This document shows positions 1 through 25,436 of a stretch of 28,748 nt of DNA, in pieces. Position numbers and translations under genes: made by a program. How positions within the stretch are numbered: the stretch's first letter is position 1; each line of letters opens with the position of its first letter. The notes below the pieces were generated by a model. That model did not search any database. It saw only the letters and a program-made list of their open reading frames with translations, and had not been told where the DNA came from. The DNA lies in the IMG/VR virus record IMGVR_UViG_3300025674_000273, positions 1 through 28,748 of that record, one strand, 5' to 3'. The DNA is from a virus.

Positions 1-920
1 GAGCGTTCTAGGTACTCTGAACCTTGGATAGCATCAAACCAACTTTCCTCATCAGCAACACCTACGGTGTCTCCCCAGAGGATTTGGAACTGACACTGAC
101 GACCTTGTGAACCAAAACGAGACTTCTCAAGTTTTACTTTCACAGTATTGCCGATACGATAACCCTTATCGTCGGTGACGAAAGATGCCTTTGCTTTTGG
201 TCGGGTCAACCAAATGCGTAGCGAATAGGTGTAAATCATTGCTTTACCACCCGGTGTCATGTAAGGAGTGGTAAGTGCTTCAGAAGGAGAACGAGTGATG
301 TTGTCCTTCAACTGATTTAGAACCAAGAATGTTGACTGACTATTCGCAATAGGAACAGTTAATTTTGACATTCCTTTGGATAGAATGCGTGCTTTAACCG
401 CCATAGTTGACTGTGGGTTGAAGTCGCCTTCTACATCTGAAATAGAAGGAGTAAGAGCCAAACTATCCCAGATAAAAAGAAACTGACTGTCTGTTGAAGA
501 GAGTAGTTCCTCGATTGTTTCCAAGACAAACTCTACCGAGGTTGCTTGAACGTAAAGAATCTTTGAAGGATCGCATCCTGCTTTCTCCAAGAAACTAAAG
601 TCAAGTGACGACTCTGAATCAAAATAAACAACATCAATGCCCATCTTTTGGGCATTACCTGCTATTTGTGCTGCCATATAGGACTTACCACTTGCTTCCA
701 GACCAGCAATCTCTGTAACTTTACCAACTGGAATACCAGCAACTTTACCTCGGCAGATAATACTATCTAACCAACGAGCGCCTGTTGGAATCCATTGCTT
801 TACAGTTGTTGGATTGTTTGGGTCTGCTAAGTCAACAGAGACTTCCTGTCCTGCTTTTTTATTAATTAATTTTCTCATCTGGTCTATTGATAAGCGACCA
901 GCAGATTTCTTTTTAGACAA
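1..920 (-). CDS. uvsX: RecA/UvsX-family recombinase, 3' end outside window
   Basis: Strand-exchange ATPase that would coat single-stranded DNA and drive recombination-dependent replication and repair, as UvsX does in T4. About 306 residues are visible; the C-terminus runs off the left edge. Walker A is GLEASGKS (residues 73-80), a YFDSES stretch at 99-104 matches the RecA catalytic-Glu region, Walker B is FLFIWD (147-152) followed by SLALTP, and FLVLNQLKDN matches the L2-proximal NQ motif. TPGGKA and a Tyr/Ser-rich strand follow, as in RecA. I chose a TTG start at 920 because GGGGAGG lies 6 bases upstream and the reading frame is open from there; the next in-frame ATG (MRKLIN, near 878) has no good ribosome site. 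It overlaps the end of the upstream gene by 8 bases. The RecA/UvsX superfamily call is firm; choosing UvsX over RecA rests on context. Confidence 0.9.
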   Translation of the reverse strand, partial: MSKKKSAGRLSIDQMRKLINKKAGQEVSVDLADPNNPTTVKQWIPTGARWLDSIICRGKVAGIPVGKVTEIAGLEASGKSYMAAQIAGNAQKMGIDVVYFDSESSLDFSFLEKAGCDPSKILYVQATSVEFVLETIEELLSSTDSQFLFIWDSLALTPSISDVEGDFNPQSTMAVKARILSKGMSKLTVPIANSQSTFLVLNQLKDNITRSPSEALTTPYMTPGGKAMIYTYSLRIWLTRPKAKASFVTDDKGYRIGNTVKVKLEKSRFGSQGRQCQFQILWGDTVGVADEESWFDAIQGSEYLER

Positions 921-1236
921 CTTCTTCCTCCCCTATACTCCCGTTCTTATCAGGTCTAAAAGCATAAATAGTTCCACGGTAAGCACGTTTATCAACTTTC
1001 ATTGAAACATTACCACCGAAGTCTCTTACTTCTAAAATATATTCCTTAGAGCGTTGGATAAGATTAGAAACATCACTGTTATCAGACCAGAACCAAGCAT
1101 AACCTTCTTTAATATCTTGTTTTGAAGCATGAACTGAAGATTCGCTATCTGGTCCCCCGCCGAGACCTTTATAACGATGTGCTAAATCTTGAAGCGCATC
1201 ATCCCAACCGTCCTCTCCTTTTTTCCACTTTTTCAC
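913..1236 (-). CDS. Hypothetical protein, 107 aa
   Basis: I do not recognise this protein. It starts at a GTG with a good ribosome site (TAGGAG, 6 bases upstream) and ends inside the start region of the recombinase gene, so it is translationally linked to it. The N-terminus is charged (MKKWKKGEDGWDDA), the middle has aromatic residues (YAWFWSDNSD, about 46-55), and the second half alternates hydrophobic and charged residues in a way that suggests beta strands (YILEVRDFGG, then a Lys/Arg-rich strand). There is no signal peptide or membrane segment. Its place between the zinc-ribbon gene and the recombinase suggests a small replication or recombination accessory protein, but that is context only. 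Confidence 0.7.
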   Translation of the reverse strand: MKKWKKGEDGWDDALQDLAHRYKGLGGGPDSESSVHASKQDIKEGYAWFWSDNSDVSNLIQRSKEYILEVRDFGGNVSMKVDKRAYRGTIYAFRPDKNGSIGEEEVV

Positions 1237-1245
1237 GATTATCTC

Positions 1246-1527
1246 CTAAAATGTATAAGTTGAATTGGTTTCTTGTTTCTTTTGTTTGATCAACCCAAAT
1301 TTATCTTCCATGTTTTCATAATCGTTATAAAGATCGTTTGGAGTTGCTTTAATGTTCATTTTGAGGGTTTTGAATTTTGTTTTTTTATCTTTGATATCAT
1401 ATTTGAAGTGAGTTAGAAAACCTCCGTAGACCATTACTCGTCCACACTCGCACTCTCTCACGTCTTCTCTTGCTCTTGAATAAACAGTTGTATTACACTC
1501 TTCACACTTGATGGCTTTTACGAACAC
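1246..1527 (-). CDS. Small zinc-ribbon-like phage protein, 93 aa
   Basis: Cys8-x2-Cys11 and Cys26-x-Cys28 form a likely zinc-binding knuckle pair, followed by GRVMVYGG. The pattern IKCxxC...RxxxxxCxCG...V.GG recalls small zinc-ribbon proteins common in T4-like phages of aquatic bacteria (a DUF7695-type family); this is from memory, not from a search. The remaining two thirds are Lys/Asp/Asn-rich and probably helical or disordered. The start is GTG with AAAGGGGAAGAA just upstream. The gene is the first after the terminator that follows gp32, so it may be read through or have its own promoter, which I could not identify. Its function is unknown; a nucleic-acid or protein-binding role is plausible. 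Confidence 0.75.
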   Translation of the reverse strand: MFVKAIKCEECNTTVYSRAREDVRECECGRVMVYGGFLTHFKYDIKDKKTKFKTLKMNIKATPNDLYNDYENMEDKFGLIKQKKQETNSTYTF

Positions 1528-1547
1528 TTCTTCCCCTTTTAATTATC

Positions 1548-1581
1548 AAAAATATGCGGGGCACCTATAAACCCGTGCCCC
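1548..1581 (-). terminator. Rho-independent terminator after gp32-like gene
   Basis: On the minus strand GGGGCAC (1581-1575) pairs perfectly with GTGCCCC (1564-1558) around a 10-base loop, followed by GCATATTTTT. It lies 22 bases beyond the stop codon of the SSB gene. The U-tract is short and offset by a few bases, so termination may be partial. Confidence 0.7.
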
Positions 1582-1603
1582 CCTGCGGTTATCTAAACAA
1601 GGA

Positions 1604-2356
1604 TTAACTACCTAGTAGATCAGCAAACGCTTGGTCCACATCAGAAACTGCACCAGTAGAGGTAGTGGATACTGGTTGGTTGGTGACTGCCTCGTCAACT
1701 GTGTTGAGGAAGCGGTCAAGAATATCCGCTACTTGCGTAGAGGAACGACGAGCGTCAGCGAAGACCTCATCAAAGTCAGGCACAGACTCCATTAGAGTGC
1801 GTGCTTGTGTCTCGTCCTCGTGAAGAAGAGAAGACTTACGACGTGGAGTAATCTTAGTCTCTGGATAAGATGCTCCTGCTGGTTTTGAGTAAGTGATAAC
1901 CAAATCAGTTCCCTCGTTAGGGTCTGTGATATCACCATATTCTGGGTTTAGAACAAGACCAAGTAGAGTTTCGTAAGCACGCTTACCAAATCCCCAAACT
2001 TTTACGCCTTCTTCCTCTTGCCCTCGGACAAGAACTGGAGCAAAGAAACGCTGCTTTGCGCCCAATTTACGTGCTACACGTTTGGACTCCTCTGAACCCT
2101 CACGCCATAGAGCACGAACGTAGTCATCAAGTGGGCAATCCTCTCCAAAGTTTCGTTTTGGTGATAGGAATCCAGGTTCACCCGCTACGTCATAGTGAAA
2201 CCAAAAATCTCGGAAGGGGTCGCCATCTGATGGCGCTACCAATCGAATAGTTTGCTCACCCTCTTCCGGTTTCCAGAAGTTGTTCTTACGTGAGTTGTTT
2301 CCGTTTCCTTGAAGCGCCTCCATACGAGCACGCATTTTCTCCATATTAATTCCCAT
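1604..2356 (-). CDS. gp32: gp32-like single-strand DNA-binding protein
   Basis: Single-strand DNA-binding protein of replication, recombination and repair. The 250-aa length is somewhat short for T4 gp32 (301 aa). Features that match: a basic N-terminal region (MEKMRARMEALQG) for cooperative binding, an OB-fold core rich in aromatics (FWKPEEG, FRDFWFHYD, KVWGFGKRAYETLLG), the stretch GDITDPNEGTDLVITY seen in gp32 homologues, and an acidic tail ending FADLLGS, which in this family binds partner proteins. The core has one Cys (Cys74) and His54, so the zinc site of T4 gp32 seems to be missing. The start has AAGGAGA 8-9 bases upstream; a second Met at residue 5 is possible. It lies downstream of the tubulin-like gene and is followed by a terminator. 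Confidence 0.88.
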   Translation of the reverse strand: MGINMEKMRARMEALQGNGNNSRKNNFWKPEEGEQTIRLVAPSDGDPFRDFWFHYDVAGEPGFLSPKRNFGEDCPLDDYVRALWREGSEESKRVARKLGAKQRFFAPVLVRGQEEEGVKVWGFGKRAYETLLGLVLNPEYGDITDPNEGTDLVITYSKPAGASYPETKITPRRKSSLLHEDETQARTLMESVPDFDEVFADARRSSTQVADILDRFLNTVDEAVTNQPVSTTSTGAVSDVDQAFADLLGS

Positions 2357-2395
2357 AATAATTTTCTCCTTAGTTAAAGTCAGTGTGTTGATCTA

Positions 2396-3244
2396 TCACG
2401 CTGCTAGTTGTTGTATCAAAGTGCTGCTTTTTTCGCAGTAAGATATAATCTCTTTATAATCGGTTGAATGGACCGAATAAGTTATTTTCATTTTTTCGTG
2501 TTCTGTGTTTTGTTTTAAGTTTCCACGAATAACCTCCATCAAGTTAGGATCTTCTTCTAGTTGTTTTTTCGGAACTCCATAATAATAACTTTTTTCCCTT
2601 GGAATGTCAAGGTCAAAAAACATTTTTTCTTCATTATTTTCTGAATCAAGCAAACCAAAGGTGGATACACGAGCAGTGTCGATACGCTTAGTTTGTGTAG
2701 TCATTACTGGCTGCGTATTTTGAAAGACATTCAACATATGATAAGTTGTTGCCACCAAGTTATTCATTGAGTTCCAGAACTTCATTATTGGAACTGGACC
2801 CATTATACCAGATAATTTAAAATTGTCAACTAAAAAAACACGGTCAAGCAAACCTGACCGGGCATATTCTTGGAAGACGTTGAAAAGAAGGCGGTTTTGT
2901 AGAAGTTTTTGACCTACAAGGTCGTCTTCTTGTGGAAGGATATACATTACTCGTATTTTGGTTTTCGTGTGTATTTTCTGTAATATTTTAAGGGAAGCAC
3001 CAGAAACAGCACCACAACTTGTGATAAATAAAGTTTCGGACATCACCCCCTCTAAAAAGTTGTTTATACCTTTCGGTAGTGTGGTTGATTCATAAAGTTC
3101 TGGACTGTCCTGATGCTTAAGACCAAAAGTAGTCTTGGTCTTTTTTAGATCTACATCTATTTTTTTTATTTGATATTGTGGGTAGGCAGAGAGTGCGTCT
3201 GCAATGCTGCAACCTGCCTTACCCAAACCTATGACGGTTTGCAT
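2396..3244 (-). CDS. FtsZ/tubulin-like GTPase (divergent phage homologue)
   Basis: The order of motifs fits the tubulin/FtsZ fold. The N-terminus VIGLGKAGCSIADAL resembles the FtsZ T1 glycine loop and first helix. IDVDLKKTK lies where the T2 loop should be. SCGAVSGASLKIL stands where FtsZ has its GGGTGTG T4 signature, keeping only part of the glycines. RVMYILPQED resembles the following strand, and FLVDNFKL the IPNDKL element. KRIDTARV sits where FtsZ has NxDFADV, with Arg in place of the second catalytic Asp. KMKITYSVHSTDY resembles the C-terminal VTVIATGF strand. At 282 aa it is a little shorter than FtsZ or PhuZ and lacks a long tail. The start ATG has TGAGGATTGA before it; the polymerase stop TGA is part of that site, so the two genes are coupled. 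It could be a degenerate, non-hydrolysing member. Fold call moderate; function (filament, DNA positioning, host division) unknown. Confidence 0.6.
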   Translation of the reverse strand: MQTVIGLGKAGCSIADALSAYPQYQIKKIDVDLKKTKTTFGLKHQDSPELYESTTLPKGINNFLEGVMSETLFITSCGAVSGASLKILQKIHTKTKIRVMYILPQEDDLVGQKLLQNRLLFNVFQEYARSGLLDRVFLVDNFKLSGIMGPVPIMKFWNSMNNLVATTYHMLNVFQNTQPVMTTQTKRIDTARVSTFGLLDSENNEEKMFFDLDIPREKSYYYGVPKKQLEEDPNLMEVIRGNLKQNTEHEKMKITYSVHSTDYKEIISYCEKSSTLIQQLAA

Positions 3245-3251
3245 TCAATCC

Positions 3252-4439
3252 TCATTTAATGTTTAATGGTTTCATTTGATCCCAGTTTTTACCGCCCTCG
3301 TGGTTTACTTTAAACTTGCCAAATCTTGTATTACTAAATAGTTTTGAAATCTTATTTATGTCTTGTTGATCTTCTTCTGAAAGGTCGATAACTAGACTGT
3401 CATGGTTGCAAAACTTGATAAAAGACTTCTTGCCCTCAAGAAATTCCCAAACTTTATACATTTGCTCAAAAACAAGGTCAGCAGCAGTAGATTGGATGAT
3501 ATAGTTTAGGGCATGGTCTTCGTCAGCATCAATCTCACGACCGAATTGTGTGTAAACCTTGCCTAAAACTTTATCATAATACATATCTTTTAGAATTTTA
3601 CGGTCGTAAATCTTATCTACCTTATCATCGGTGCTATTTGGGTTGTATAACCAAGAAAAAATCCTTTTCTTTGCATTTTCTCTGCTTTTTGTCCTAGTGA
3701 AGACATTTTCCATATTCCAATCGTGTAAATCTTCCTTTGGTTGGTCATGACCGAGCAGAGCAAGGGCAACCCGTAGTTCACAAGCATTGAAGTCTAACTC
3801 AAATAACCAATCATTAGTTGGAGTAAGGACTTGACGATACTTTTTTGGAAGCGTCATCACTGGAAATGAGTTAGGCTTTGTTGCTAAACGACCTGTGACT
3901 GTCTTAAACATATCATATTCGATGTAAGGTCGGCATTGACTGATAGTTTTGAACATATTACGGTCTTGGACTGTAAGTCGCTCTATCTGTGTAGGGTCAA
4001 TGTTGACCTTTTGGAGACGAATGTCTGCGATTACCTTATTTATCTTTAACAACTGGTCATAGTTTTGGGGTTTAGGATAGTTGTTAAAGATGTCTTCACA
4101 GATTTTATTTTTTATTTCTGCGAAGTTTTGCAGATAGTGCCTCGGGATAAGATCATAGACACAGTGCTCGTCAAGGTTTAAACCTACTTCGTTTGCTGCT
4201 TTGAGTGCTGCTTTGATTCTTCCTTGGACAGAGGACCACTCCCCTTTAAGACTTCCAGGGCAAAGGTTTTCCAGGGATTGACCCCCGGTGTAAAGATTAG
4301 CATACTCGACCTCCTTGTGTCGTAGGTAAGTAGCATAGGACCAAGTTTGGGTGCAGTTGTCACCAATTTGTTCGCTAAATGACCCCTTCCTGTAGATAAG
4401 AGAGCATTTGTTTTTTTCATCGAATGTTTGGAAAAGCAT
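3252..4439 (-). CDS. Stand-alone family A DNA polymerase domain
   Basis: Template-directed DNA polymerase, presumably the phage replicase. Numbering from the ATG at 4439 (395 aa): TGRLATKPNS and the run to motif A LFELDFNACELRVALAL (Asp216); motif B RxxxKxxxFxxxY (Arg253, Lys257, Phe261, Tyr265), with Asn where Gly usually follows the Tyr; GKVYTQFGREI; QSTAADLVFEQM; and motif C NHDSLVIDL (Asp347) with HDS instead of HDE. All catalytic residues of the palm and fingers are present. There is no 3'-5' exonuclease domain and the N-terminal 150 residues match nothing I know, so proofreading would need another gene. A longer reading from a TTG at 4496 overlaps the upstream gene by 50 bases and has no ribosome site; ATG 4439, 7 bases after the previous stop, is more likely, though its ribosome site is also weak. 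Classical T4 relatives use a family B enzyme, so this is unusual. Confidence 0.85.
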   Translation of the reverse strand: MLFQTFDEKNKCSLIYRKGSFSEQIGDNCTQTWSYATYLRHKEVEYANLYTGGQSLENLCPGSLKGEWSSVQGRIKAALKAANEVGLNLDEHCVYDLIPRHYLQNFAEIKNKICEDIFNNYPKPQNYDQLLKINKVIADIRLQKVNIDPTQIERLTVQDRNMFKTISQCRPYIEYDMFKTVTGRLATKPNSFPVMTLPKKYRQVLTPTNDWLFELDFNACELRVALALLGHDQPKEDLHDWNMENVFTRTKSRENAKKRIFSWLYNPNSTDDKVDKIYDRKILKDMYYDKVLGKVYTQFGREIDADEDHALNYIIQSTAADLVFEQMYKVWEFLEGKKSFIKFCNHDSLVIDLSEEDQQDINKISKLFSNTRFGKFKVNHEGGKNWDQMKPLNIK

Positions 4440-4446
4440 TATATCA

Positions 4447-5682
4447 CTAAAAGTTACTTCTGTATTGATTATATTTTTTATCTTTTTCTTTTGCAAGAAA
4501 ATTCGCCATCTGGATCAGAGCATAATATGTGCTTTTATTTGATGCCGTTTCGCGAAGTCTATACAATATATCATTGAAGTTTTTAGGTGTCAAGGAAACT
4601 TTTTCTTCTATAAGTTTTAATTTAAAATATTTCTCTATAAAAAAGTAATCTGGGTAATAACTTATAAATTCTTCATATGTTACTTTGTTAATATCTTTAA
4701 ACTCTGTTTTTCTATCAATTAAAATTCTTGATGTTTTATAGTTTGTTTCCACTACTGATGATCCAGGGCAACTATCTACAATTATTTTTTCCATTCTAGG
4801 TCTAGAAGAAATAACAGAATAATAAGAAGCAAACATATATTTTTTAAATGATTCATAACTAATATATTCTGCTTGTAAATAATTCTTTCGAAAGTTATCT
4901 GCAGCATCTATCACATTAACCTGAGCCATATATCTTTTCATGTTTACAGAATTCATATTTGCTACAATTGACCACGGAATGTGTTTGTTAACATAAAAAC
5001 CAAAATTGGCAGCAAGTCTAATATAATCAATAAAAAAATCACTAGATAAATATTTTACCCATTTTTGATCATCAGCATCGTATTTGTCTAAAGCAAACTC
5101 TATTATTAACCCACTTGCTCTATTGCTCATTATTGGAGACAATAAATAACCAGATAAGGTGTGAGGAAAATAACTTTTTACTTCGGCAAATGACAAATAT
5201 TTATCAATATAAAAAACAAAATCTTTAGTGTTGTTTCTACTCTTTTCACTTAAAAAACTATTTTTAAATCGTAAATCTAATTTGTTTTTAAAATAATAGT
5301 TATAAAAATAAACCGCATCTTCAAACGCTTTTTTTGGATTATTAATATCAATAACCGTTGCTGCTGATGATTTAAGTTTTCTTCTTGCTTCTAATACTGC
5401 ATTTCTAAAATCAAAATAAGCATTTGCTACAAAATTCATTGCATATAAATCAGTGCCAATTTGTTTTAAAAGATTGTTTTTTGGTATTATTGTTCTTTGA
5501 AATGTATCAACTTTCCCCCACAGTGGTCTTTGATACCATATATCAATTGGTCTTGGAATGTTATTACCAACTGGATATATCTCTGTGTTTTTTAAATAAT
5601 ATGATCTTTGTGTGTAAAGAAAATCAGGTGCCAAACCATTTTCAGCAAATGGTATCACATTATTTGATAATTGTCTAGACAT
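4447..5682 (-). CDS. Unknown, probably tail or baseplate-associated protein, 411 aa
   Basis: Not recognised. The protein is rich in Tyr, Phe, Asn and Lys, without signal peptide, membrane segment or clear coiled coil. The N-terminal 70 residues are proline-rich and extended (YPVGNNIPRPIDIWYQRPLW). The rest looks helical with many aromatics (VYFYNYYFKNK, YISYESFKKYMFASYY). It is the last gene of the tail block, directly after the hub-like gene, and the polymerase begins 7 bases after its stop, so it marks the structural/replication boundary. The start ATG lacks an evident Shine-Dalgarno site, and the DNA here is markedly AT-rich. From position it may be a baseplate or fibre-attachment protein; an early-gene role is also possible. 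Confidence 0.75.
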   Translation of the reverse strand: MSRQLSNNVIPFAENGLAPDFLYTQRSYYLKNTEIYPVGNNIPRPIDIWYQRPLWGKVDTFQRTIIPKNNLLKQIGTDLYAMNFVANAYFDFRNAVLEARRKLKSSAATVIDINNPKKAFEDAVYFYNYYFKNKLDLRFKNSFLSEKSRNNTKDFVFYIDKYLSFAEVKSYFPHTLSGYLLSPIMSNRASGLIIEFALDKYDADDQKWVKYLSSDFFIDYIRLAANFGFYVNKHIPWSIVANMNSVNMKRYMAQVNVIDAADNFRKNYLQAEYISYESFKKYMFASYYSVISSRPRMEKIIVDSCPGSSVVETNYKTSRILIDRKTEFKDINKVTYEEFISYYPDYFFIEKYFKLKLIEEKVSLTPKNFNDILYRLRETASNKSTYYALIQMANFLAKEKDKKYNQYRSNF

Positions 5683-8562: not shown

Positions 8563-8904
8563 TCACACTTCCAGTATTTCTAGTATTCTTTCTAGCGGCA
8601 GTGGTATTATTATTTTTTGTCCGATTTTTACATCGCTTTCTATTGGGACATTATTAAAGTACGCAATTATCCACCAGTATACTGAATCGCCATAGTATTC
8701 CTCAGAGAGTTTATAAAATCTATCTGTACTTTTCCAAGTGTACTTTTCTAGCGTTATTCCAGTTAAATCTTTATACCTTAATTGTTTCATTTTTTTAAAT
8801 GAAAACATTATTGCGCGATTTATTCCTCTACTCTCAAACAATTTAGCATATTGAGAATCCGTATTTATAACTACATCATTGTCACGATATCTACTAATGG
8901 CCAT
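8563..8904 (-). CDS. LysM-domain baseplate protein (gp53/XkdP-like)
   Basis: 113 aa. The C-terminal half (about 56-104) is a LysM-type repeat: WKSTDRFYKLSEEYYGDSVYW, then WIIAYFNNVPIESDVKIGQ and the closing KIIIPLP strand. LysM in this position is typical of small baseplate proteins of contractile tails (T4 gp53, PBSX XkdP), which help fix the hub and wedges at the tube base. The N-terminal half is beta-rich, beginning ISRYRDNDVV. The start overlaps the previous stop as TAATG, with GGAGG 10 bases upstream. No signal peptide, so a lytic role is unlikely. Confidence 0.8.
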   Translation of the reverse strand: MAISRYRDNDVVINTDSQYAKLFESRGINRAIMFSFKKMKQLRYKDLTGITLEKYTWKSTDRFYKLSEEYYGDSVYWWIIAYFNNVPIESDVKIGQKIIIPLPLERILEILEV

Positions 8905-9701
8905 TATTCTCTCGCCTCCGCTTCTTCTTTTTGACTAGGTGATTTTGCCTCTCTATCTTCTGGAGTTGTTGAGGAATTTGTGCCGCCACCTAAATTAGCA
9001 ACATTTACTACATCTTCAGGAGATATCGGAGTGGAATCTTCAGCGGATATCGGAGTCTGATATGGCGCTCCATCAGCGTATGTATAATTTTCTACTGGAC
9101 CATCTGGATCAACAGATTGATTTGGAACCTGCTCTGAATTACCAGTTCCATCTGTTCCCGTGCCCTCAAAGGTCATCCCAGCACTTCCACCTGGATCTCC
9201 ATCGCCAATCCATCCTGGTATGAATGAATGTAGTACTTGTAAAGTTAAAGAAACATTATATTTTCTTTCATAAAAGCGAGTGCCTATCACAAGAGGTGGC
9301 ACCCCTTCCGTTGACCCTGGAACAACTCCAAATGCGGTAAAATAACCTTTAAATAGAGAATAAATTGAATTATTAAGAACACTAATGCTAAATATTGGAG
9401 GCGCAGACAAAATTTGACCACCACCAGAAGAAGAATATTTTGGATATTGCATCTTTATTAGCAAATCAATATCTGCTTGTAATTTTGATGCACTATCTGG
9501 TTGTTTACCTAAAGAAGTAAAAGAAAAAGTTGCAGTTCTTTTGACATTAGCAAAAGTTGAAATAGGGTCCATTTTTCCATAAGCATCTTGAGACGCCCAT
9601 GTGGGAGAAAATTCTTGTGCAACATCCAATTGGGCACAATTGAAAGTAACAGACTTTCCAACATGTAATGCTTCTATTTTAATTGTCGCTATCTTACTCA
9701 A
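8904..9701 (-). CDS. Tube-like baseplate protein (gp48/gp54-type candidate)
   Basis: 265 aa. The first 165 residues look like a tail-tube fold: FSPTWASQDAYGKMDPIST, followed by a strand KRTATFSFTSLG, a helix with KLQADIDLLIKMQYPKY, and closing strands YNVSLTLQVLHSFIPGW. The 'W..QD.YGKMDP' signature is what I associate with tube-initiator or tube-cap proteins that link baseplate and tail tube. Residues 170-265 are a Gly/Thr/Pro/Glu-rich, low-complexity tail of unknown purpose. The start is TTG, with TAGGAG 6 bases upstream; the TAG is the tape-measure stop, so the genes are coupled. The gp48/gp54 assignment is inferred from position and fold pattern. Confidence 0.7.
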   Translation of the reverse strand: MSKIATIKIEALHVGKSVTFNCAQLDVAQEFSPTWASQDAYGKMDPISTFANVKRTATFSFTSLGKQPDSASKLQADIDLLIKMQYPKYSSSGGGQILSAPPIFSISVLNNSIYSLFKGYFTAFGVVPGSTEGVPPLVIGTRFYERKYNVSLTLQVLHSFIPGWIGDGDPGGSAGMTFEGTGTDGTGNSEQVPNQSVDPDGPVENYTYADGAPYQTPISAEDSTPISPEDVVNVANLGGGTNSSTTPEDREAKSPSQKEEAEARE

Positions 9702-14394: not shown

Positions 14395-14946
14395 TTAATT
14401 TAATTTGTTATATTTCGCTGCTACATAAGTTACACCCATAGTAACAGTCAAAGGTGAATCACTATCATACGATAGTTCCCCACCAAAAGAAAAACTTGTT
14501 GGTTGGGGTTTTAGAAAAGTCCACTCTTCTATTGGTTTACCCTCTGCATTTAATTGGGTTAAAGTTAAAGAGAACTTGCCAGCATCTAAATTAGCAAACA
14601 AGTTAGATAATTTACCAAGAGTTTGCTCTGGTTCATAACCAGAAGCAGTTAACCATTCATATATTTTAGAACTTGCATTTAATTCAGATTGTTCAACATC
14701 CATCAAAGTCAAACTTATGTCTGGCCATTGATATGCTTTAGCAATAATCTCTGTTTCTGATGTAAAATTGTTGATAATTGTTTCACTACCAATTTCAAAA
14801 GTTGGTTTTGTGAAATTTACGACAAGAAAAGTAAAACTTGAATTGCCTTCAGTGCCGCCATCTGCAAAGAAGTCTATTTGTCCTAACCAGCGAAAAGATC
14901 GTTTGGGTTCTAACTTTCCAGATGCCCAGAAACTTGTTCCTGCCAT
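14395..14946 (-). CDS. gp19: Tail tube protein gp19, second copy
   Basis: 183 aa, the usual size of gp19 tube subunits. It begins with SFWASGKLEPKRSFRWLGQI, nearly parallel to the other copy (FWANNTLEPKRSFRFLMEF). Shared later landmarks are KPTFEIG (KPSFQME in the copy), the WPDISLTLMDVE strand, the LSNLFANLDAGKFSLTLTQL region, EEWTFLKPQPTSFSFGGELSYDSD and a final TMGVTYVAAKYNKLN strand. Tube rings stack inside the sheath and conduct DNA. AAGGTGAG lies 6 bases before the ATG. It may form a specialised ring (for example baseplate-proximal) or a minor tube component. Confidence 0.88.
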   Translation of the reverse strand: MAGTSFWASGKLEPKRSFRWLGQIDFFADGGTEGNSSFTFLVVNFTKPTFEIGSETIINNFTSETEIIAKAYQWPDISLTLMDVEQSELNASSKIYEWLTASGYEPEQTLGKLSNLFANLDAGKFSLTLTQLNAEGKPIEEWTFLKPQPTSFSFGGELSYDSDSPLTVTMGVTYVAAKYNKLN

Positions 14947-14980
14947 TTAACTCACCTTAAAATAATTAAGTTATTAACCC

Positions 14981-15541
14981 TTAAGTTGCTACGCCGTCAC
15001 GTACACCAGTAGAACTAACACTACTAAGTAGTGTAGCATAATCATAGACAATAGTTAACTGATAATTTACTATATCATCGGAATCATAACTTACTTCTCC
15101 GAAGTTAACATTGGAAATAAATGGATTCCAAAGAGTCCACTCTTCTATGTCTTTTCCTGCGTCGTCTATTTGTCTTAGTTTAATGCCACCAAGGGAAAGA
15201 TTAGCATTAAACTTGCTAATTGATCCTCTTGAGTTCTCATCAGTATCTGGTTTGTGATAACCAGAACCCTCTAAAACATTCATTAGCACTGCTGCAGCAT
15301 CAGGAGAAGCGGGGTCAACTATAGTGACATTGATATCTTGCCACATAACACGACCGGGGTATTTAAATGTATGCTGAATGTACTTTACTTGTGGACCTCC
15401 TTCCATTTGGAAACTTGGTTTGCCACTGCTTTTTACATAGTAAGAAGCAATTGTTGCACCCATTTCTGGTCCTGCAAACTCCATTAGGAATCTGAAACTT
15501 CTTTTTGGTTCTAGTGTGTTGTTTGCCCAAAATGTACTCAT
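14981..15541 (-). CDS. gp19: Tail tube protein gp19, first copy
   Basis: 186 aa tube subunit directly downstream of the sheath gene, the standard gp18-gp19 order. Landmarks are FWANNTLEPKRSFRFLMEF (4-22), KPSFQMEGGPQV, WQDINVTIVDP, IEEWTLWNPFISNVNFGEVSYDSDD and the closing strand YQLTIVYDYATLL, all typical of the family. Its leader carries a strong ribosome site (AAAGGGGAGAA) after a 17-base sequence shared with the gene at 21540. Position next to the sheath suggests it is the main tube protein. Confidence 0.92.
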   Translation of the reverse strand: MSTFWANNTLEPKRSFRFLMEFAGPEMGATIASYYVKSSGKPSFQMEGGPQVKYIQHTFKYPGRVMWQDINVTIVDPASPDAAAVLMNVLEGSGYHKPDTDENSRGSISKFNANLSLGGIKLRQIDDAGKDIEEWTLWNPFISNVNFGEVSYDSDDIVNYQLTIVYDYATLLSSVSSTGVRDGVAT

Positions 15542-15582: not shown

Positions 15583-18519
15583 TTAATCATCAAAAGAAGC
15601 GCCAGAGTCTGTGATAACAAAATCAATTGCGATAAATTCAATTGCTCTAGTTGGCTTCAAGAAAATCTGTGCATACATGATGTTTCTATCAATCAAATCT
15701 GGTGTTGTTGTGGTCTCATCTAGTACTAGTTTGTAAGCATCTAGACCCAATCCTGCTTTAACACCCGCAAGGAATGGTTCTACCTGACCACGGAAACGGT
15801 TCCATGTTGATTGAACATTTTGGTCAAACAATAATGTCGCCGCGTATCTTGAAATTTGACGCTTCACATAAATGAGTAGTCGTCTTACATTAATTCTATC
15901 CAAAGCAGAAGGAGTAGATTGTAGTGTCTTTTGACCAAAGATTACAATACCCTCTGATGGGAATTGTGCAATTGGGTTAATATTGGCATCATATAATGAA
16001 TCTCTATCTTTTGATACCAATCTTTCACGCACAGAGAGAACCGGAATACCGGCAGCGTTATTTACTGAAAGACCACCACGAGTAAACCCTGCAGGAGCAA
16101 ACCAAAGTTCCTGTGTTCTTTGCCCATAGGACATTGCACCAAGTGCCGCTATCGAAGGTGGTGCCCAAAGGACAGCACCGTTGATGGTATCCTGAATTTG
16201 CACCCAAGGATAGTAAGCAGCACCGAAACTTGAATTAATTTGCAAGGTGTTCTTCTTGTTAGTAATTGTTTCAGTAACTGAACCCAATCTCTGCTGTACA
16301 GTTAGTGTGTTTTCTGTTTTTGGAACATATCCACCCTTAAGGTCAACAATCGCCATTGCATCACCGCGTGCTTCACACATGTCAATCAAAGATCTATTAA
16401 GTGTGTTGTTAGTAATACCGGGCATTGCTGCAAGGTCAAATTCTACTGCCTCTGGATCTCTTAAGGTATCAATTGCAATCTTAAGAGAGTTGTAAGCATA
16501 GTTATTTAATTCAGTTTGTGTAATTGTCTGATCTAAGTATGTATTTCTAAAAGGCTCTGCCTCTGTGATATCCATACCATCAAATCCACCATGAAGAACT
16601 GTTGTAAATCTATCACAACCTGCATCAAGTACAAGTTGGTAAGAACCAGTTCCACGAATATAACCAAGACCACTTCTCTCAGATGGTCTTGCTTGTCGAG
16701 CACCTGAAAGATAAACATTAGTACCGGTCACGACAGAATTTGTAGTATCCGTGTTGCACATATCATCCAAAGTGAAGACAAATGAATCTTCTGTATTTGC
16801 AGTAGTTGCACTCTCAGCAGAGGTGAAACTGTTTATACCTGCAGGTTTTGCACCGGTATAATCACCGATTGTCTTTGATGAAACTCCATTACGATTAAAT
16901 GTAGTATCAACGCCAAAGTATACTGATCGTGGATCTGTTGGATTTCCTTCCGAAGCAGATGCACGCAAACGTAGTCTTGGAAATTCAAATCTAACATTTA
17001 GTGCTCCAGAAATTAGACTTAAGTCGGCAGCATCAAAAGATGTCGCTCCGGCGGCAGCGCCACCCGCGTAGAAGTTTCCAGCACCGGTAACTAGAGTGTT
17101 AGTGAAGGACAGTGCAGATGCAGTTGCCGCTTCAAATCTTGGAGGTCCAATCACACCGAATGGAAGAAGTGCAGGATTGCCTTTACCTTCAGAAATAATA
17201 TCTGTCATTTCTACATAGACATACTTAGAGCGGTTGTTGTAATCACCGTATTCCTTGTATCTTCTTATTTCATCATCCCATTCTAGATACTTATCACCAA
17301 TTTTTCTAGCAATATAGTTTTCAGAAGCGGGATTCAAGTTGCAGTTATTAAATTGCTCTATAATCTTTATGCGATTATCTGTGTCATCTACTGCTCTGAG
17401 CAGGACAGAGAAACTTCCATAATCATTAAAAGTATCTGAAGGTGCCTTAATGTCAGCGATAGATACTTTTAGATTTCTAGATGCCCAACGCCCTGTATTA
17501 CGTGCTCTTAGACGGAACAGTTTAACTTGACTTGCGGCATCAAAAGACCCTGTTGAATTTCCTTCTGTGAGATCTTGAGAAATAAAATACCCTGTTCTAG
17601 AATCTGCAAAGTCTTGTCTCTTATCTGCCTCATAAACACCATTTGCATTTGCTAGAGGGATGATAACGCCATACTGATCGGCAGCGCCAGTTGTCAATGT
17701 AAGTAATACTTGATCTTCATATGTTTCACCTAACCAGTATCTCTCTAGATTTTCACTTGGAGTGATATCAGAGTTTGTAAGTGTTGGGTTGGTGTTGAAA
17801 ACCTTACGAATAAAACGCTCTGAAGAATTTGTAAAGTTAAAAGTAGTTTCAATATCTGTTGTAACAGAAGATTCACCGCTAGAAATAATAACTTTAAACT
17901 CTTTATCTCTAGTTGCTCTAAAGACTTTGTTTGTACCAACCTGACCAGTTTTCTGATTAGTCGCAGCACTATAAGATGTACCGCCAGCAGTTGAACTTGA
18001 TACAGCAGTACCAGAAAGTGAAACAGAACCTGTATTTAGATACCAAACCGCAGCAAGAGTACCTGTTGGTATTACTGCTGAACTTGATTGAAATACGAAC
18101 AAACCATAAGCACCACCTTGAGTTCCTGCTGCTCCATAATCTGGAGATAATCTTGTAGTCTCCCAACCTGCTTCACCTGTATTAGCTTCAGCATCTGCAT
18201 GTGCTCTACCCACCAATCTAATAAAAGTTACTGGTGAGTTATTTCTTAACCAAGCTTGAGCAGCATATGGTGCGTATGTTGGTCCAACAGAATTACCATT
18301 TCTAGAGATATCCGCACCTAATCCTCCTGGTGTTGGTGGACCAAAGACTTCAACAAATTCTTGAAAAGAGTTTACAGTTGTTGGAATCAAACCTGGACCC
18401 TTTTCTGAACGTCCAATAACTACTGGACCGATATCTCCTGGTGCTCTTGATACTTGGGAGTTGTCAATTTCGTTGACAAATACTCCTGGTGAGATAAATT
18501 TGAAATCTGATGCTGGCAT
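15583..18519 (-). CDS. gp18: Tail sheath protein gp18, enlarged
   Basis: 978 aa; the contractile sheath subunit. The N-terminus has the classic FISPGVFVNEIDNSQV start and GPVVIGRSEKGPG, which form the inter-subunit mesh. The C-terminal core is also classic: GIVIFGQKTLQSTPSALDRI, NVRRLLIYVKRQISRYAATL, LFDQNVQSTWNRFRGQVEPF, LDAYKLVLDETTTTPDLIDR and FLKPTRAIEFIAIDFVIT. T4 gp18 is 659 aa, so about 300 residues are extra, lying mainly between residues 100 and 620, where Thr/Ser/Gly-rich beta stretches suggest surface domains inserted in the sheath core. AAAGGAGA precedes the ATG. A 77-base leader contains a short palindrome. Confidence 0.95.
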   Translation of the reverse strand: MPASDFKFISPGVFVNEIDNSQVSRAPGDIGPVVIGRSEKGPGLIPTTVNSFQEFVEVFGPPTPGGLGADISRNGNSVGPTYAPYAAQAWLRNNSPVTFIRLVGRAHADAEANTGEAGWETTRLSPDYGAAGTQGGAYGLFVFQSSSAVIPTGTLAAVWYLNTGSVSLSGTAVSSSTAGGTSYSAATNQKTGQVGTNKVFRATRDKEFKVIISSGESSVTTDIETTFNFTNSSERFIRKVFNTNPTLTNSDITPSENLERYWLGETYEDQVLLTLTTGAADQYGVIIPLANANGVYEADKRQDFADSRTGYFISQDLTEGNSTGSFDAASQVKLFRLRARNTGRWASRNLKVSIADIKAPSDTFNDYGSFSVLLRAVDDTDNRIKIIEQFNNCNLNPASENYIARKIGDKYLEWDDEIRRYKEYGDYNNRSKYVYVEMTDIISEGKGNPALLPFGVIGPPRFEAATASALSFTNTLVTGAGNFYAGGAAAGATSFDAADLSLISGALNVRFEFPRLRLRASASEGNPTDPRSVYFGVDTTFNRNGVSSKTIGDYTGAKPAGINSFTSAESATTANTEDSFVFTLDDMCNTDTTNSVVTGTNVYLSGARQARPSERSGLGYIRGTGSYQLVLDAGCDRFTTVLHGGFDGMDITEAEPFRNTYLDQTITQTELNNYAYNSLKIAIDTLRDPEAVEFDLAAMPGITNNTLNRSLIDMCEARGDAMAIVDLKGGYVPKTENTLTVQQRLGSVTETITNKKNTLQINSSFGAAYYPWVQIQDTINGAVLWAPPSIAALGAMSYGQRTQELWFAPAGFTRGGLSVNNAAGIPVLSVRERLVSKDRDSLYDANINPIAQFPSEGIVIFGQKTLQSTPSALDRINVRRLLIYVKRQISRYAATLLFDQNVQSTWNRFRGQVEPFLAGVKAGLGLDAYKLVLDETTTTPDLIDRNIMYAQIFLKPTRAIEFIAIDFVITDSGASFDD

Positions 18520-24771: not shown

Positions 24772-25008
24772 TTACCTTTGTTCTTCACGTAGTTGGCGCT
24801 CTCTGTGAAGTTTCTGAAGAAGTCTTTTTTTTCTTTCTTTTTCTCTTCGTCTTTTAACCGAAGGTTTTTCATAGCGTTTTCTTGCTAATGCACCTTCTAT
24901 AATTCTTTCGTTCTTTACTTTTTTACTAAAACGTTTGATCATTTTTTCTACTGGTTCGTCTCTGTGTCTTGGTTTTACCTCGACGTGAACTGGTCTTTTC
25001 TTTCCCAT
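24772..25008 (-). CDS. rpsU: Phage-encoded ribosomal protein bS21 homologue
   Basis: 78 aa with the start at 25008, where AGAGG lies 5 bases upstream. The in-frame ATG at 25035 has no ribosome site and lies in the previous gene. The order of motifs is that of bS21 (E. coli 71 aa): a first strand HVEVKPRH, then DEPVEKMIKRFSKKV as the first helix, RIIEGALARKRYEKPSVKRR with the YEKP signature at 46-49, and a long Arg/Lys-rich C-terminal helix (REKERKKRLLQKLHRERQLR). bS21 binds the 30S platform near the anti-Shine-Dalgarno region, so a phage version could enter host ribosomes and change initiation. It lies between the scaffold and a prohead-core gene, suggesting late expression. Other phages, including marine myoviruses, carry bS21. 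Confidence 0.88.
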   Translation of the reverse strand: MGKKRPVHVEVKPRHRDEPVEKMIKRFSKKVKNERIIEGALARKRYEKPSVKRRREKERKKRLLQKLHRERQLREEQR

Positions 25009-25016
25009 AATAACCT

Positions 25017-25436
25017 CTATATCATTTTGGACCAATCACGGTTAGCGATTGCCATAATACCTTTAATGTCCACACCTGGGTCGTCAGACGCTACGCCACT
25101 TAGTGCTCCTGCCTGACCGTTGGAGGGATCTGCTGCTTCCTCTATTGGTTGTGTTCCTGCAAACACGTCAATACCGAAACCAGCAGCATCTAGTAGTTTT
25201 CTTTTTTGTGCCTTCATCATTTCAAACTTTTGTTCTTGTAGTTCTTGACGCTGTTGTTGCATGAGTTTGTTCTCTTGCATTTGGGGTCTTTGTTGAACTA
25301 CTGGTTGTTGGATTGGTTGAATACCCTTTACAACCTCTGAAATGATACTAGATAATAAACCTTTCTCTAAAAGAACTTCATTTAGACATTCTTCTACGAT
25401 AGGTTTAATAACTGTTTTTAGTTGTGATTTTTTCAT
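25017..25436 (-). CDS. Gln-rich prohead-core-like small protein, 139 aa
   Basis: Not identified with a named family. The N-terminus MKKSQLKTVIKPIVEECLNE resembles that of the 119-aa gene two genes upstream; such short amphipathic N-termini are frequent in phage head proteins. The middle (40-80) is Gln/Met-rich, with QQPVVQQRPQMQENKLMQQQ, and probably coiled coil. The C-terminal part has Gly/Ala/Asp-rich sequence and ends MAIANRDWSKMI. Position between gp21 and bS21/gp22 suits a prohead core protein such as T4 gp67/gp68, or an internal protein cleaved by gp21. The start has AAAGGTTAAA, which overlaps the gp21 stop. Confidence 0.65.
   Translation of the reverse strand: MKKSQLKTVIKPIVEECLNEVLLEKGLLSSIISEVVKGIQPIQQPVVQQRPQMQENKLMQQQRQELQEQKFEMMKAQKRKLLDAAGFGIDVFAGTQPIEEAADPSNGQAGALSGVASDDPGVDIKGIMAIANRDWSKMI

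Follow-up and report, generated by a model that had tools for sequence, protein, structure and literature searches.

PhuZ and TubZ, the known phage tubulins, move DNA or virions as dynamic GTPases. TubZ hydrolyzes GTP, has helix H8 and a C-terminal tail, and works together with TubR and tubC; CetZ is a cell-shape factor. No tubulin relative is known to us to take part in DNA synthesis as such. In solved protofilaments, the contact between subunits is formed by loop T7, the base of helix H8, and strand S9, and the catalytic acid is supplied by T7 (PMC3678025).

We analyzed a 28.7-kb record from an uncultured virus, and refer to this whole stretch of 28,748 nt as the window. T4-superfamily genes for structural proteins (major head protein, head protease, tail sheath, tail tube, baseplate hub, and tape measure) are present, as is a replication block that contains the gene of a reduced tubulin relative, P0001 (ATG start, 282 codons plus stop; Table 1). 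Three other features of the window, all on the minus strand, were recorded along the way. The tail sheath protein (15583–18519) is very large, with 978 aa, and its match to a sheath profile of ~500 aa spans residues 8–976, which implies large insertions. Two adjacent tail-tube-like proteins (14395–15541) both match PHROG 4542 and are perhaps a duplication. A phage-encoded homolog of ribosomal protein S21 (PF01165) lies at 24772–25035; the host could not be named from its best cellular matches, which are weak (30–54% over short stretches) and spread over many phyla.

Table 1 Features of the replication block and of the tubulin-like gene, in positions of the window
Feature	Position	Strand	Basis
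RecA (UvsX-like) recombinase, cut by window end	3..920	minus	PF00154, E 2.4e-34
Small conserved protein of unknown function	913..1236	minus	No Pfam/PHROG match; syntenic in near relatives
Small Cys-rich (zinc-ribbon-like) protein, DUF7695	1246..1527	minus	PF24749, E 5.6e-8
gp32-like single-strand DNA-binding protein (SSB), immediately downstream of P0001	1604..2356	minus	PF08804, E 3.6e-13; PHROG 1192
P0001, tubulin/FtsZ-superfamily protein, reduced form, 282 aa	2396..3244	minus	ORF, AF2, Foldseek, VIA, dN/dS
Promoter-like element 2, TTGACA-N17-TATTAT, 11/12	2582..2610	minus	Codons 212–222
Residues 176–192, position of T7 and H8; reduced in length, lacking a helix and a conserved acid	2669..2719	minus	DSSP of both models; column counts
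Beginning of core helix H7 with F156/W157 (counterparts of the base-stacking aromatic) and N161 (counterpart of the guanine-contact Asn/Asp)	2762..2779	minus	Conservation; hhalign
Promoter-like element 1, TTGACA-N16-(TG-N)-TATAAT, 12/12, extended -10	2802..2829	minus	Exact sigma70-type consensus; codons 139–148
T6, V139-D140-N141, counterpart of FtsZ IPN (guanine contact Asn)	2822..2830	minus	N141 96/96; hhalign
Terminator-like hairpin just upstream of element 1	2841..2860	minus	Consensus scan
Degenerate T4 loop, residues 75–84, TSCGAVSGAS	2993..3022	minus	Family pattern
T1 phosphate loop, G6-LG-K-A-G-C12 (form GLGxAGC)	3209..3229	minus	Conservation; hhalign to FtsZ T1
Family-A DNA polymerase, immediately upstream of P0001	3252..4439	minus	PF00476, E 1e-13; conserved polymerase residues

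The original prediction had described a divergent FtsZ/tubulin-like gene in a T4-like replication block. The block is T4-like in its gp32-family SSB (PF08804) and its RecA (PF00154), but its polymerase belongs to family A (PF00476) and not to the family B of T4 gp43; nor was DNA_pol_B detected in eight relatives of 131–191 kb. The polymerase (~395 aa) has no relative above ~28% identity in GenBank phages, and probably starts at the ATG at 4439 instead of the TTG at 4496 given in the ORF list, because relatives align only from about residue 19–20. P0001 had been described as translationally coupled to the polymerase, which overstates the case: it is separated from the polymerase stop by 7 nt here, but by 300–1100 nt in ~35 relatives. 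Some relatives have insertions of 300–1400 nt in the block, between polymerase and tubulin (loci L010 and L021) or between tubulin and SSB (loci L083, at 8850–9655, and L170), and where an insertion has widened the tubulin–ssb gap, a strong promoter-like site again stands just before ssb.

AlphaFold2 (AF2) returned a confident full-length model of P0001 (pLDDT 93.4, pTM 0.91; alignment of 41 sequences), and its top Foldseek matches in the PDB were only FtsZ, TubZ, and tubulin (best E = 6.8e-13, to FtsZ; 617 chains below 0.001). VIA-align superposed the model on CetZ (Z = 24.7, 258 residues, 3.0 Å), TubZ (Z = 23.4, 273 residues, 2.8 Å), and FtsZ (Z = 22.6, 270 residues, 3.7 Å); solved CetZ, TubZ, FtsZ, and tubulin cover it over its full length (Z 21–25, rmsd ~3 Å) at 10–17% identity. 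A second AF2 model, of a divergent member 33% identical to P0001 and based on 43 divergent sequences, has the same order of elements (pLDDT 94.3; Z = 25.7 against CetZ). The two-domain fold of the superfamily (nucleotide domain, core helix H7, and C-terminal domain) is present in both models (pLDDT 93–94), which align with tubulin-superfamily chains over 256–277 residues (Z 21–26), H7 and the C-terminal domain included. Sequence and profile searches were largely uninformative, so the superfamily assignment rests on predicted structure: direct searches with P0001 gave nothing significant in Pfam, PHROGs, PDB sequences, or GenBank phages, and searches of PDB sequences with profiles of 41 and 96 members gave only chance-level matches (SirA, cysteine synthase). 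The gathering score of Pfam PF00091 was not reached, with no match to P0001 even at E = 10 and none in the window record. When the 96 members were scanned singly, 17 matched Pfam Tubulin weakly (best E = 1.4e-4). Tubulin was the most frequent and best supported Pfam family match across the 96 members. The predicted structures strongly support P0001 as a member of the tubulin/FtsZ structural superfamily, as had been proposed from its motifs. They also bear on the possibility that P0001 is no tubulin at all but a dehydrogenase of the Rossmann type or some other protein that binds nucleotide through GxGxxG, a motif that GLGxAG resembles; TrkA_N was weakly touched by 11 of the 96 members (best E = 0.016). 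With two confident models fitting tubulin-superfamily chains, H7 and C-terminal domain too, and with Tubulin as the best supported and most frequent Pfam match, we find this scarcely credible. A non-tubulin fold was the outcome that had been named as speaking against the prediction; both models came out tubulin-type, and a Rossmann fold is strongly disfavored.

Relatives were numerous in IMG/VR (104 confirmed in a first scan and at least 588 stretches in a second), so that a profile and a sufficiently deep alignment could be built. The motifs quoted originally all occur in the P0001 translation (GLGKAGC at residues 6–12, SCGAVSGAS at 76–84, VDNFKL at 139–144, KRIDTARV at 186–193, and the C-terminal strands). 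The gene is under purifying selection (dN/dS 0.10–0.18), and 96 sequences reaching down to 33% identity to P0001 all share G6, G8, G11, Y24, L85, Q125, S130, N141, and N161; together with the same fold in two AF2 models, this argues that the motifs are not due to chance. In loop T1, the three glycines G6, G8, and G11 are found in 96/96 sequences, L7 and C12 in 95/96 each, and A10 in 93/96. Loop T4 has the pattern [GS]-x-G-x-[IV]-[ST]-[GA] in the 96 sequences instead of the FtsZ signature GGGTG(S/T)G, which it does not match, the Thr and Gly of FtsZ being replaced by a variable residue and by Ile/Val, respectively; the degradation first noticed in P0001 is thus family-wide. An hhalign comparison of the family with an FtsZ profile (12 sequences: E. 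coli and 11 others) lines up T1, T3, T4, T6, and H7, and matches N141 to the IPN Asn and N161 to that of FGAAND in E. coli, at a weak score (E = 0.087). The FtsZ/tubulin counterparts of N141 and N161 contact guanine. N161 (96/96) is preceded by an aromatic residue at 156 (Tyr in 75 sequences, Phe in 10) or 157 (Tyr in 44, Trp in 22, Phe in 12), as by Phe in FtsZ and Tyr in tubulin, and the family has the guanine-contact set made up of an Asn in T6 and an aromatic and an Asn/Asp in H7.

We infer guanine-nucleotide binding from these residues, although the degenerate T4, judged from sequence, might mean that binding has been lost. Two stretches conserved specifically in this family, at the end of H5 (FNVxQEYARS) and in the middle of H7 (HMxN), mark an interface or a core. 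Strong conservation of this kind, away from the nucleotide loops (Q125, Y127, R129, and S130 in H5; H169, M170, and N172 in H7), would suit a protein that has kept the tubulin fold for architecture only and no longer binds nucleotide, and so would the family-wide loss of the Thr and one Gly from T4 and the loss of T7/H8. Such a scaffold is made quite improbable by the invariance of G6, G8, G11, N141, and N161, which correspond to nucleotide-facing residues of FtsZ and tubulin.

From H7 to the first strand of the C-domain (S7), where FtsZ has T7 and H8, there are 17 residues, and the helix is absent from both models (DSSP). Asp/Glu account for at most 52% of any column in this region, and R192 is found in 89/96 sequences. 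What had been noted as an altered T7 acid in P0001 is a family-wide loss of the catalytic acids, and neither model has helix H8. The register of T7 is ambiguous: KRIDTARV was originally taken for this loop, and hhalign places a different stretch (the end of H7) against the T7 of FtsZ. No acid pair is conserved in either register. With the T7/H8 region shortened, helix-free, and acid-free, hydrolysis of the tubulin type would be lost, and, as far as the models indicate, so probably would the canonical filament contact. The family-wide loss of the catalytic T7 acids and the missing H8 make it reasonable to suppose that P0001 binds but does not hydrolyze nucleotide.

The same region weighs on the idea that P0001 polymerizes to position virions or the phage genome during replication, like PhuZ of phiKZ-like phages or plasmid TubZ. 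The phage tubulins of known function form such filaments (PMC4244570, PMC3678025), and P0001 shares their fold, has a conserved nucleotide face, and is encoded among replication genes. However, its T7/H8 region, needed for canonical contact and hydrolysis, is reduced as described, and the protein ends a few residues past the last strand, with no C-terminal tail of the PhuZ/TubZ type. Of the components of a phage nucleus system, multisubunit RNA polymerase genes, which the PhuZ phage 201phi2-1 has, were not found in eight long contigs, which are possibly incomplete, and a chimallin search of these contigs, run without a positive control, was empty. We regard positioning filaments as unlikely.

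The gene order is family-A polymerase, tubulin, gp32-like SSB, and RecA. In all tubulin-seeded loci that hold polymerase and SSB, the tubulin lies in between (193/193). To remove the bias due to seeding with tubulin, we also seeded the search with the polymerase, taking the best 80 matches and hence covering this polymerase clade only: tubulin was found in 71 of 72 new loci, the exception ending right after the polymerase, and the order polymerase–tubulin–SSB held in all 65 loci with all flanks. Pairwise distances of tubulin and polymerase are strongly correlated (r = 0.938, 127 loci; reached by 0 of 300 permutations), the two diverging equally fast, and the correlation of tubulin distances is lower with SSB (0.844) and with RecA (0.68). 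The constant place between polymerase and SSB, and a divergence that tracks the polymerase, indicate that the tubulin gene behaves like a vertically inherited core gene of the replication block.

Such behavior is not that of a typical host-takeover gene, which matters for the role originally suggested for P0001, the capping or poisoning of filaments, perhaps those of the host FtsZ. In this reading, the intact nucleotide face of P0001 would bind FtsZ, or a different tubulin of the host, and division would be blocked. The contrast between a conserved upper nucleotide face and a degenerate lower T7/H8 face is the asymmetry expected of a one-sided cap, and P0001 has no second phage tubulin to pair with, all eight long contigs (131–191 kb) having one tubulin copy per genome. 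Against this stand the fixed polymerase–SSB place and co-divergence with the polymerase, which suggest a core replication gene, and the loss of the FtsZ-specific T3 features (GAGANPE); we found no evidence supporting a cap, and hold it to be highly doubtful.

The cultured phages nearest in capsid and SSB are Flavobacterium phage immuto and Microcystis phage Mel-JY01; in the stretches examined of their polymerase–SSB–RecA or SSB–RecA block, no tubulin was detectable. The tubulin was therefore gained in the present clade or lost outside it, and is not needed for such replisomes in general. In immuto-like phages, unrelated small genes fill the polymerase–SSB slot. Relatives of immuto have there a conserved protein of 151 aa (L149:1346–1801) with no detectable kinship to tubulin. 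That the two small genes of immuto in this slot represent a split or decayed tubulin is unsupported (hhalign probability <1%). A scan with the Mel-JY01 protein just upstream of the SSB, taken for the polymerase, returned no relatives.

P0001 may thus be viewed as a reduced member of the tubulin/FtsZ superfamily that forms a core part of the DNA replication block in a large uncultured clade of T4-related phages. Guanine nucleotide would most likely be bound in the conserved pocket of T1, T6, and H7, and could not be hydrolyzed in the tubulin way by subunits without the T7/H8 element that completes the active site of the neighbor. The protein might then act at the phage replisome as a nucleotide-bound adaptor or a short non-dynamic oligomer, not as a dynamic spindle of the PhuZ type, and might contact the family-A polymerase and/or the SSB, e.g., tethering or regulating them. 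A nucleotide-binding, non-hydrolyzing tubulin relative serving the replisome as adaptor, tether, or regulator is the reading that we tentatively prefer, at a little under an even chance; within it, the fold (as predicted), the conservation, the single copy, the constant position, and the co-divergence with the polymerase are observations, and we infer the GTP binding, the lack of hydrolysis, and the partnership with the replisome alike. It is suggested by the conserved nucleotide face, the lost catalytic and lower face, and the permanent linkage to, and co-divergence with, the polymerase. However, adjacency and shared genealogy alone would yield much of the co-divergence, and non-canonical filaments would be compatible with the monomer model. 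A stronger form, in which the tubulin has been recruited as an obligatory replisome subunit, with guanine nucleotide as a structural or sensing ligand, physical pairing with the family-A polymerase, and no dynamic filaments, seems to us rather doubtful; if true, P0001 would to our knowledge be the first tubulin relative in DNA synthesis itself, and a core gene of an abundant phage clade.

The coding sequence of P0001 also contains two promoter-like elements. Element 1 runs in the direction of transcription, has TGG directly before its -10 hexamer, and is the only exact consensus match in the window (0.02 expected). Almost all relatives with more than ~56% identity keep it in the same codon positions. 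Of 135 unique coding sequences, 42 contain a 12/12 site, compared with 1.5% when codons are shuffled synonymously, the sequences being related and the counts therefore not independent. Element 2 is more widely kept than element 1: the codon of D213 is GAC in 51/51 near relatives, and in far ones GAC outnumbers GAT by 50 to 4, although Asp is otherwise more often encoded by GAT. There are three peaks of synonymous conservation, at codons 137–148 (element 1), 207–220 (element 2), and 271–282. In many of the far relatives, a promoter close to consensus stands where the tubulin gene ends or between this gene and SSB. The third peak (2399–2434, minus strand), which adjoins the ssb start at the 3′ end, possibly reflects translation signals or another promoter. 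Judged by its consensus, element 1 probably drives ssb and recA, and the simplest reading is that the predicted SSB–RecA transcript starts inside the tubulin gene, making part of the coding sequence dual-use. Promoters conserved within codons would make this phage core gene a clear example of dual coding.

No description of tubulins of this phage group was found in the literature searched, although a preprint or subscription paper could exist, and P0001 and its relatives match neither a tubulin PHROG nor any cultured phage. The family is best described as a new, reduced branch of the known tubulin superfamily. It escapes Pfam and PHROG annotation and belongs to the core genes of a large group of uncultured phages, in which its place between polymerase and SSB is fixed. 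The family extends the uses of the tubulin fold in viruses, provides a natural case of a tubulin without the catalytic element, and raises the question of whether a cytoskeletal fold can be part of a replisome.

Among viral predicted structures, the nearest to P0001 are FtsZ/tubulin proteins of uncultured phages in BFVD (A0A6J5RW92, A0A8S5UFG9, and A0A8S5USZ9; E = 2.9e-12 to 1e-5, compared by predicted structure), which are longer (347–452 aa) and 12–14% identical. PhuZ, the spindle tubulin of phiKZ-like jumbo phages, is likewise a phage-encoded member of the superfamily, and its profile matches the family weakly from T1 to S5 (hhalign E = 0.002, probability 14%); its absence among the 50 structural matches listed is no argument against kinship. 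PhuZ keeps both T7 Asp residues (D187 and D190, invariant in seven sequences) and an acidic C-terminal tail, P0001 has neither, and the neighbors of the PhuZ gene in 201phi2-1 are unrelated to those of P0001. FtsZ has a like fold (Z ~22) at ~10–14% identity, but its T3, T4, and T7 signatures and H8 are lost in P0001, which ends at S10 and lacks the FtsZ linker and C-terminal FtsA/ZipA-binding peptide; P0001 is not a cellular gene, a tubulin scan of ~85,000 cellular genomes having detected no relative. The partition tubulins of Bacillus plasmids and phages (TubZ; PDB 2xka and 4ei7) also have a like fold (Z 23.2–23.6, 272–276 residues) and the same type of guanine pocket. The flanking genes here are polymerase and SSB, in contrast to the TubZ system, and a search of positions 1200–4600 for TubRC-like centromere iterons gave only scattered two-copy repeats of low identity, at chance level. 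Archaeal CetZ (PDB 3zid and 4b45) is the best structural match of both models (256–258 residues aligned), with Z only 1–2 above TubZ and FtsZ, and hence no special kinship is claimed; at 13–16% identity to CetZ, P0001 differs from it as a phage core protein of ~280 aa without the conserved T7 acids or helix H8.
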